Assembly (NCBI RefSeq): GCF_003725795.1 | Contig: NZ_RBEE01000043.1 | Coordinates: 62,001 to 126,000 of the forward strand | Length of the DNA stretch: 64,000 nt | Direction of reading: 5' to 3' | Source of the DNA: Pedobacter jejuensis | GTDB taxonomy: Bacteria > Bacteroidota > Bacteroidia > Sphingobacteriales > Sphingobacteriaceae | Part shown: positions 31,156 to 46,916 of the stretch, in pieces | How the letters are laid out: each line of letters starts with the position of its first letter | Position numbering within the stretch: position 1 is the stretch's first letter | The notes under the pieces: generated by a model | The model's database searches: none | Told to the model about the DNA's origin: nothing | Seen by the model: the letters and a program-made list of their open reading frames with translations, nothing else | Made by a program: the position numbers and the translations under genes

Positions 31156-31626
31156 ATGAATGATTTAGTGCTTATCAGAACCAATTCAGATAATGCCGAT
31201 TTTAGACAATTGGTTGCTTTATTGGATAAAGATTTAGCAATTAGAGATGGTGATGAACATGCTTTTTATGCTCAGTTTAATAAAGTTGATACAATAAAAG
31301 AAGTTGTAGTAGCTTATCAAAATAAAATTCCTGTTGCTTGTGGTGCCATCAAAACTTTCTCAGATTCTGCAGCCGAAGTAAAACGTATGTTTGTTCACCT
31401 CGATTACAGAAAGCAAGGCATAGCAGCAAAAGTTTTATCCGAACTAGAAACTTGGGCAACTGAATTAAAATACAACAAATGTGTTTTAGAAACAGGCAAA
31501 AAGCAGCCCGAAGCTATCTCTTTGTATCAAAAAATGGGTTATCATATTACTGAAAATTACGGTCAATATATCGGCGTAGATAATAGCGTATGCATGAGTA
31601 AGGTCTTACTTGATACTAAAAAATGA
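31156..31626 (+). CDS. GNAT family N-acetyltransferase
   Basis: This 156-residue enzyme has the GNAT fold. The acetyl-CoA pyrophosphate loop is RKQGIAAKVLSELE, preceded by the strand AEVKRMFVHLDY. The C-terminal segment is ISLYQKMGYHITENYGQYIG. Such enzymes transfer acetyl groups to small amines or protein N-termini, and the acceptor is unknown. It overlaps the ABC ATPase gene by 4 bases, so both are made together. Confidence 0.9.
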   Translation: MNDLVLIRTNSDNADFRQLVALLDKDLAIRDGDEHAFYAQFNKVDTIKEVVVAYQNKIPVACGAIKTFSDSAAEVKRMFVHLDYRKQGIAAKVLSELETWATELKYNKCVLETGKKQPEAISLYQKMGYHITENYGQYIGVDNSVCMSKVLLDTKK

Positions 31627-32237
31627 AGATAAGCTTAAACAATGTTGGTAGGAGATTTAACAAGGAGTGGATTTTTAGAAATCTAAGTACCGAATTTATT
31701 TCTGGAAACAGTTATGCGATATTAGGTCCGAATGGTTCTGGAAAATCTACATTGTTAAGCGTTCTCACAGGAAGTTTAACACCATCAGAAGGTGAAATAT
31801 CTTTTGCAGACGCAAAAGATATTCCTGTGGAAGAAATTTACAAACACATCAGTTTAGCTGCCCCGTACTTAGAACTCGTGGAAACTTTTACACTTAAAGA
31901 ACTTATAGACTTCCATTTTAAGTTTAAAAATTTTGCTAATGGTGTTGATGCAAAAGAACTCATCATCATTCTTGGTTTTGATAAAGCGGCAAATAAAGAA
32001 ATAAAGTATTTTTCATCGGGAATGAAGCAAAGAACCAAACTAGCTTTGGCTTGTTGTTCTAATTCGCCAATATTATTTTTAGATGAACCAACCAGTAATT
32101 TGGATGTTCAAGGCATGAAATGGTATCTGGAATTAATAGAAAAATTCACTAAAGACAGGTTAACCATTATCGGATCCAACCAAATTGCAGAATATGAATT
32201 CTGCAATAATCATATTCAATTGTCTGATTATAAGTAG
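31623..32237 (+). CDS. ABC transporter ATP-binding protein without a visible permease
   Basis: This 204-residue ATPase has Walker A GPNGSGKSTL (about residues 35-44), signature motif FSSGMKQRTKLALA, Walker B ILFLDEPTSNLD, and a changed switch segment IIGSNQIAEYEF where H would normally follow D-loop residues. The length is at the short end for the family. No membrane partner is next to it; the following gene is convergent and a peptidase. It may pair with a permease encoded elsewhere or serve a non-transport role. The neighbouring lpx genes make a lipid-related job possible, but this is inference. Confidence 0.88.
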   Translation: MKISLNNVGRRFNKEWIFRNLSTEFISGNSYAILGPNGSGKSTLLSVLTGSLTPSEGEISFADAKDIPVEEIYKHISLAAPYLELVETFTLKELIDFHFKFKNFANGVDAKELIIILGFDKAANKEIKYFSSGMKQRTKLALACCSNSPILFLDEPTSNLDVQGMKWYLELIEKFTKDRLTIIGSNQIAEYEFCNNHIQLSDYK

Positions 32238-32314: not shown

Positions 32315-32345
32315 TTTGGTAAATATAAAATAGTTCTTACCTTTG
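32315..32345 (+). promoter_or_regulatory. Strong promoter of a candidate small RNA
   Basis: TTTG (32315-32318), 19 bases and TACCTTTG (32338-32345) match the Bacteroidota consensus exactly. There is no start codon with a usable frame downstream. Confidence 0.8.
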
Positions 32346-32349
32346 CACC

Positions 32350-32516
32350 ACCAAAAAGAGAAACAAATATCCTATTATTTTTCTTTTAGAAAGCATACAA
32401 TTATCCGCAAGTGCGGATTTAAAATATAGCCAGCAATTGGCAAAAGATTTTTCATAGTTTAGTTTGAGGTTTAGGTTGATTATGCCTTTGGAGTGGTTCC
32501 CAAAGGCATTTCTTTT
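32350..32516 (+). ncRNA. Candidate free-standing small RNA, about 165 nt
   Basis: Between a consensus promoter and a strong terminator lies a stretch with no plus-strand reading frame. It can form a hairpin ATCCGC-AAGT-GCGGAT (32403-32418) and a smaller one GCCA-GCAAT-TGGC (32429-32441). The neighbours end here from both sides: the ABC ATPase upstream, and the peptidase on the opposite strand. The RNA therefore stands alone and is not a leader. I do not recognise a known family such as 6S, tmRNA, SRP or RNase P RNA. Confidence 0.6.
32482..32516 (+). terminator. Terminator of the candidate small RNA
   Basis: A perfect 10-bp stem (ATGCCTTTGG 32482-32491 with CCAAAGGCAT 32500-32509) is followed by TTCTTTTA. 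It may also serve the peptidase gene from the other side, although that gene ends 120 bases away. Confidence 0.85.
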
Positions 32517-32639
32517 ATACAAGGTTTTTGTGCTCTGCAATGACTTCATTTAAACCCAATTTCACGAAAATTCTTTTTGAGAAAATCTCAGGTTTTTAGA
32601 ATGAAAAGACTGACTATTGCATTTTTATTCAATCATACT

Positions 32640-46254: not shown

Positions 46255-46308
46255 TTTGGTTAAATTTAAGATATTTTATCAAGTCTTAAGGCACTATTCT
46301 AAACAAAA

Positions 46309-46338
46309 AAAGCCTTTGAAAACAAATTCAAAGGCTTT
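46309..46338 (-). terminator. Rho-independent terminator of efp
   Basis: The stem AAAGCCTTTGAA (46309-46320) pairs with TTCAAAGGCTTT (46327-46338). On the minus strand the stem is followed by a T-rich run. It lies 17 bases after the efp stop. Confidence 0.88.
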
Positions 46339-46355
46339 CTATTCAATAGAAAATA

Positions 46356-46916
46356 TTATTTTACACGCTCTACATATTCGCCTGTACGTGTATCAACTTT
46401 AATTTTATCGCCTTGGTTTACAAACATTGGTACTTTAACCTCAACTCCATTTTCAAGCGTTGCTGCTTTCAATGCATTTGTAGAAGTATCACCTTTAACT
46501 GCTGGCTCAGAATACGTAATTTCGAACTCTGCAAAGTTTGGTAACTGGCCCATTATTGCCTCGTCGCTTTCCATAGAAACGATAACATTCATACCTTCTT
46601 TTAAGAATTTAATGGCCGAACCAAATAACGTTTTTTCAACATTATATTGCTCATAAGTATTGTTATCCATCACCACCAAATAATCTCCATCTTCATACAG
46701 ATATTGATAATCGCTGGTTTCTACGCGACAAATTTCTACAGCTTCGTCAGTATTCATACGAGCCTCAACAATTCTACCTGATTTAATATTACGAAACTTT
46801 CCTGTGTAAAAAGCGCCGCCTTTACCTGGCGTACGGTGGTTCCATTCGTCAACAGTAACCAATTCGTTATTTACGCGAAGAATGTTACCTGTTTTAATTT
46901 CTGATGCTTTTGCCAT
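46356..46916 (-). CDS. efp: Elongation factor P
   Basis: This 186-residue protein rescues ribosomes stalled at polyproline. The KOW-like N-terminal domain contains EWNHRTPGKGGAFYTGKFRN, where the tip Lys (GKGG) is the residue modified in many bacteria. OB domains 2 and 3 follow, with the C-terminal signature GDKIKVDTRTGEYVERV. Whether it is modified cannot be read here; no epmA/earP gene is nearby. A -7 box lies 43 bases upstream. Confidence 0.97.
   Translation of the reverse strand: MAKASEIKTGNILRVNNELVTVDEWNHRTPGKGGAFYTGKFRNIKSGRIVEARMNTDEAVEICRVETSDYQYLYEDGDYLVVMDNNTYEQYNVEKTLFGSAIKFLKEGMNVIVSMESDEAIMGQLPNFAEFEITYSEPAVKGDTSTNALKAATLENGVEVKVPMFVNQGDKIKVDTRTGEYVERVK

Follow-up and report, generated by a model that had tools for sequence, protein, structure and literature searches.

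The window analysed here, a stretch of 64,000 nucleotides from the genome of Pedobacter jejuensis (4.8 Mb in 45 contigs), very probably holds a real small-RNA (sRNA) gene. The locus is an efp gene that has been emptied, which lay beyond what the original prediction could see: a promoter and a 3' element are kept, and the efp1 open reading frame (ORF) between them is gone. It is proposed with moderate confidence that the locus yields a free-standing sRNA of about 165 nt, left from the efp1 unit by ORF loss, which would act in trans as a FopS-like repressor of SusC translation. Such an RNA may tune the production of sugar-uptake proteins. The sRNA is new as a family and probably works by known principles.

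The original prediction had placed a free-standing small RNA, distinct from the known housekeeping RNAs, between two genes whose ends face each other. For the P. jejuensis genome this is supported, and the parts that had been named were located (Table 1): the exact TTTG-N19-TACCTTTG promoter, two internal hairpins, and a 10-bp terminator stem with its T-run. The claim of about 165 bases without a plus-strand frame also holds, as no plus-strand ORF of at least 40 aa lies within the feature; only two short TTG frames (28 and 29 aa) overlap it. A small-protein reading was rejected, no ATG frame being conserved among 33 relatives. Neither a tRNA nor a tmRNA was found in the window, and an Rfam scan, which had been suggested as a check, gave no family at gathering score at the locus. 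Elsewhere in the window, two Flavo-1 RNAs (RF01705; 17256-17323 and 17562-17629), about 300 bp apart, lie just over the gathering score.

Table 1 Features of the locus and related genes (positions in the window)
Feature	Position	Strand	Remarks
ABC ATPase gene	31623..32237	+	PF00005, E 9.8e-25; conserved upstream neighbour; marker for the locus tree
Promoter	32315..32345	+	-33 TTTG 32315-32318, 19 nt, -7 TACCTTTG 32338-32345; homologous to the efp1 promoter of relatives
Conserved 5' leader	32346..32364	+	CACCACCAAAAAGAGAAAC; near-invariant in 33 relatives of the own clade
Hairpin 1	32403..32418	+	6 bp, loop AAGT
Hairpin 2	32429..32441	+	4 bp; less regular among relatives
Core	32448..32481	+	TTTTTCATAGTTTAGTTTGAGGTTTAGGTTGATT; 34 nt, nearly invariant; predicted unpaired target-pairing region; FopS-core-like
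Terminator	32482..32517	+	10-bp stem 32482-32509, invariant 8-nt loop, T tract TTCTTTTATA
S9 peptidase gene	ends 32640	-	convergent with the ABC ATPase gene
efp2	46356..46916	-	sole efp gene of the genome, RTPGKGG type (Pfam); not the parent of the sRNA

The strongest sign of a transcript had been seen in a perfect promoter that has no gene. This argument fails statistically: the exact pattern occurs 8 times in the window against 5.97 expected, and 30 of 100 shuffles reach 8. The exact match is thus at chance level and alone no evidence; the evidence is conservation. Indeed, the -7 box and the core vary little or not at all among 33 relatives of the own clade, and transcription is expected to start near 32346-32352. 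Terminator-like sites are also common (9 per 9 kb, 7.5 expected), with the one at the locus being the richest of the nine in G-C pairs and one of two with 10 pairs. The predicted fold of the RNA has a minimum free energy of -37.3 (z -2.26), which was equalled in 5 of 200 shuffles. At the site of hairpin 1, a hairpin of at least 5 Watson-Crick pairs is present in 29 of the 33 relatives (shuffled mean 3.8, maximum 10 in 200 rounds), and the sequences of its stem vary widely between them. A helix between leader and core was proposed by RNAalifold from 33 full-length RNAs, in columns that hardly vary.

The 3' part of the locus was found by blastn in 25/25 same-genus genomes, the own genome included, and in 0/16 genomes from other families of the class. 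The 3' third is the best-conserved part. Across the alignment of the 25 loci, the core reads TTTTCATAGTTTAGTTTxAGGTTTAGGTTGATT, the only exceptions being a single substitution in L022 and a single inserted base in L012. The terminator loop is invariant, and four of the nine consensus terminator pairs differ on both sides with pairing retained. These 25 loci were picked by similarity; the named loci were found by the exact core pattern, and core conservation in them is therefore by construction. Promoter and terminator are both kept in close relatives, the former with a near-invariant -7 box in the 33 and the latter with covariation. The original prediction had also looked to conservation of the locus between its two neighbours, and this stood on one side. 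In 24 of the 25 same-genus genomes the element has the same ABC ATPase gene upstream, and in the 25th the stretch starts inside the gene. In contrast, the peptidase has not been conserved next to the locus; efp or other genes follow in the relatives examined.

With R1, a covariance model built on the element, matches at E 0.001 were obtained in 72 of 251 family genomes, 52 of which belong to the same genus; at least 159 genomes had no match. In P. jejuensis the model gave a single strong copy (109.8 bits) and a doubtful one (39.9 bits; C3:109072), which resembles a terminator only. Twenty of the weaker or second hits were examined, 12 of them from other genera. Eight of these 12 have the order ABC gene, efp, element (g18, g31, g34, g37, four genera), and EF-P was confirmed by Pfam in three other-genus loci. 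The efp of g37 bears the RTPGKGG motif, which is otherwise the label for efp2. Promoter and element without efp are present in L133 (g34), and L138, from Pedobacter, is also ORF-less. Two of the remaining other-genus hits lie downstream of an Hsp20 gene and one elsewhere. Diverged copies downstream of Hsp20 (L122, L128 and L130; element at about 1454-1589) were seen in a single Pedobacter genome and in two genomes from a different genus, and Hsp20 is a possible second 3'UTR host of the element. Furthermore, a prophage-borne copy was observed in L121 (G053:C1:429400-432600, element 1555-1645). This diverged second copy (67.6 bits) directly follows a tRNA-Met gene and is flanked by a phage portal gene (phrog_64, E 5e-61; SPP1_portal, E 1e-40) on one side and, on the other, a gene with head-morphogenesis matches. 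In viral_contigs the core pattern was absent, and phage records gave no blastn match.

The element occurs in two states. A scan with the exact core gave 108 stretches, of which 80 were examined (78 from Pedobacter and two MAGs, one from Sphingobacteriaceae and one from Bacteroidota) and 76 scored, the ABC gene being outside the stretch in the other four. In 38 of the 76 loci the core begins 1-4 nt past the stop codon of efp1. Among the 25 same-genus genomes, the element directly follows the efp1 stop in 10, with EF-P assigned by Pfam. The other 38 scored loci are free-standing, with promoter and 3' element but no efp ORF between them; the distance from the core to the ABC gene is 199-255 nt in 37 of these and 592 nt in L142. 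A box of the form TAnnTTTG is found no more than 200 nt ahead of the core in 37/38 free-standing loci vs 0/38 efp-type loci. In the latter, the promoter box lies between the ABC gene and efp1 (36/36 testable loci), and efp1 leaders match 36 of the 38 free-standing loci by blastn. Therefore, the promoter of the sRNA is the old efp1 promoter. The only EF-P match in the whole P. jejuensis genome is of the efp2 type, and efp1 is absent.

These positions suggest how the gene was built. The free-standing gene would consist of the efp1 promoter and the start of its leader, a short structured spacer at the site of the ORF, and the efp1 3'UTR with core and terminator. As efp-type loci have no promoter box near the core, an RNA at that place would have to be released by cleavage of the efp mRNA. 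Once the ORF is lost, the old efp promoter would drive synthesis of the RNA directly. A similar situation is described for 3'UTR-derived sRNAs in the available text of PMC9438474, where the RNA is an mRNA 3' end that uses the terminator of the mRNA. This arrangement, a place in the mRNA 3'UTR with a shared terminator, is seen in the efp-type relatives, and in the P. jejuensis genome the ORF is gone. Unlike the RNAs covered in that text, the host ORF here was repeatedly lost. The nearest case given there is that of MalH and MicX, which occupy the same place, one being processed and the other having its own promoter; the word "pseudogene" does not occur in the main text of the article. Among the matches listed from the open-licence literature, there was no report of ORF loss creating sRNAs, nor of Pedobacter sRNAs.

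Coding remnants of efp1 were detected in 5 of the 38 free-standing loci. The last efp1 codons stand just before the core in L144, L150, L197 and L216 (0 hits in the minus-strand control), and the first codons are retained in L170 (tblastn E 2.4e-4). With the other genera as outgroup, these remnants give the direction of change as ORF loss. In the own clade of the window no efp1 coding remnant was found. Twenty-two loci of this clade, and three unscored ones, have an intact efp1 farther downstream, and these 25 copies form one group with a support of 94, which is below the starred level. The grouping suggests that efp1 was already present in two copies by the time the first lost its ORF.

Moreover, the ORF was lost more than once. 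A tree of the neighbouring ABC gene alone, with 90 rows (45 free-standing and 45 efp-type, two rows being from the same genome), needs seven changes of state. A more careful tree of 87 rows, from which three long-branched rows were left out, again needs seven, six of them forced by well-supported branches, and the number stays at seven throughout the bootstraps. A single origin, with the 44 free-standing Pedobacter rows kept as one group, was rejected (p-AU 0.00025), and so was a grouping of L201 and L216 with the own clade (p-AU 0.0015). Placing L170 with them was rejected weakly (p-AU 0.039). Some of the seven changes could be regains of efp. The recurrence of ORF loss indicates that the 3' RNA is evidently worth keeping apart from the protein.

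The claim of an undescribed transcript stood in part. At the locus every Rfam family stays below its threshold, but the core resembles that of published sRNAs, the FopS RNAs of Bacteroides thetaiotaomicron. According to the available text of PMC11697453, FopS RNAs pair at the start codon and repress SusC translation, and the RRM protein RbpB antagonises them; one of the 14 is derived from a 3' end, and the motif is also reported in a phage. The two best Rfam models at the locus are rteR and FopS, both far under their cutoffs. In the alignment with the rteR model (RF04181; 24.6 bits, cutoff 72) the likeness lies mostly within the terminator, and BTnc049 (RF04179) is a further weak match at the same site (15.4 bits, cutoff 81.9).

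A more direct relation to FopS, with the locus RNA as a true family member by descent whose separation from the Bacteroides copies predates the divergence of the orders, is rather unlikely, although it has some points in its favour. FopS (RF04319) is the second-best of 4227 models, and its model aligns along the whole core (UUUUUCAU-GU-UUAG-UUU-AGGUU), followed in both RNAs by a terminator. When ten further loci were scanned, FopS was found at the same place in one (L004, 31.6 bits). As for general features, both RNAs have a canonical Bacteroidota promoter, and in both cases an RRM protein is encoded in the genome, here a single RRM_1 protein of 98 aa; pairing with SusC start codons is in P. 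jejuensis predicted only. However, the score of 24.1 bits is well under the cutoff of 56, and the FopS model has no match at E 0.01 in the own genome. FopS RNAs are about 65-70 nt long with the seed at the 5' end, whereas the locus RNA is predicted at about 165 nt, with the core on the 3' side, about 100 nt from the predicted start. FopS is multicopy (14; 12-15 per genome), and the P. jejuensis element has one strong copy. An origin from an efp 3'UTR is seen for the element, and the available text of PMC11697453 contains no report of such an origin for FopS. By Rfam cutoff, length, copy number and seed position, the RNA is not a FopS member. Searching 395 genomes of the phylum with each model gave FopS over the cutoff in five and at most 42 bits for the element model outside the family, with a gap between the groups and no bridging loci. 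Furthermore, two independent origins are conceivable for a motif that is complementary to AUGAAAAA starts. The RNA may still work like FopS.

Two intergenic loci of another family, f18, L254 and L255 (1501-1580), carry TTTTTCATAGGATAAGGTTTAA...GGTTAT and a terminator and are weak hits of the FopS model (36.4 and 35.1 bits); they are possible bridges between FopS and the locus RNA. Weak FopS-model hits in L253 and L256 run antisense over start codons and were not counted as sRNAs (9 of the 30 loci of this search were inspected).

In the preferred explanation, a FopS-like repressor left by ORF loss, the single-stranded core (UUUUUCAU...AGGUU...) would most likely pair over the start codon of mRNAs for SusC-type outer-membrane transporters. 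This pairing would block their translation, as FopS does in Bacteroides, and the single RRM protein of the genome would perhaps take the role of RbpB. In sequence, the core looks like a start region in reverse complement, ...AAACTATGAAAAA. Pairing of the core was computed for 45 SusC genes, kept of 49 over the family cutoff, with 310 other genes from a genome sample as controls. The SusC start regions have a mean of -16.7 kcal/mol vs -14.0 for the other genes (p 5e-6). Against the 78 signal-peptide-like genes among the 310, with a mean of -14.9, p is 0.006; an earlier, smaller run (30 SusC vs 49 signal-peptide genes) gave p 0.065 under a narrower definition of such genes, which was widened between the runs. 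The SusC shift was matched by 0/100 shuffled cores against all genes and by 2/100 against signal-peptide genes, and the leader and the middle of the RNA have no SusC preference. The best partner among the 355 genes is a SusC gene, L039 (-28.0 kcal/mol); L303 and L304 likewise have start regions among the best predicted. The preference is a shift of means, as 31/45 SusC genes and 104/310 other genes pair at -15 kcal/mol or below, and the start codon lies within the duplex with equal frequency in the two groups. Given this overlap, the start-codon position and the earlier p value, SusC control is thus the favoured hypothesis and not a result.

An RNA acting in trans on other mRNAs, or pairing through its 5' leader, is an unlikely explanation. 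The SusC preference would then stem from A-rich start regions that are shared between genes. Only 3 of the best 15 predicted partners are SusC genes, the other 12 being other genes, and the leader is near-invariant too in the own clade. Nevertheless, SusC genes make up 15 of the best 50 partners, and both the shuffled cores and the lack of preference in leader and middle speak for the core. Near-perfect complements of the core were also counted across the genome, with a 17-nt pattern and at most two mismatches; there were 10, the locus included, vs 5 for the reversed control, too weak a signal for naming targets. On the same contig, outside the window, six SusC genes stand in a run (G000:C43:9189-40783). 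Five of them have nearly identical starts (ATGAAAAAACTTYTACAAAGT), and several of the run rank among the best predicted core partners.

It is decidedly improbable that the element serves only as terminator and 3'-end stabiliser of the efp mRNA, the ORF-less copies being leftovers or a transcription barrier with no function in trans. In relatives the element indeed lies at the end of efp transcripts, and the terminator is the strongest of its structures. However, the unpaired 34-nt core is as invariant as the stem, even in ORF-less loci, and 37/38 of these keep the promoter box. The efp2 gene of P. jejuensis ends in an ordinary terminator without the core, and its 3' end (46288-46360) owes to this terminator the 27.9 bits that it scores with the element model. 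At least six separate losses all retained both ends, as far as a core-based scan, which is blind to core-less loci, can tell. Finally, a mere chance pairing of promoter-like and terminator-like sequence, which the chance frequency of the promoter pattern in the window would allow, can practically be dismissed, as it is contradicted by conservation in 25/25 same-genus genomes.

The making of an sRNA gene can thus be traced in living species, from an intact gene with a 3'UTR element through a decaying gene to an emptied gene with new hairpins. It is possible, and put forward tentatively, that an ORF lost some six or seven times within one family left a stand-alone sRNA gene which forms the Sphingobacteriaceae branch of an ancient, Bacteroidota-wide control of SusC by start-codon pairing, FopS being another branch. 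The efp-type species (for example P. steynii and P. hartonius) and the free-standing ones (for example P. terrae and P. soli) offer two natural types for comparison at the bench. Pedobacter genomes carry dozens of SusC genes (49 over the cutoff in P. jejuensis), and if the mechanism holds, sRNA control of SusC would extend from gut Bacteroides to soil Pedobacter.
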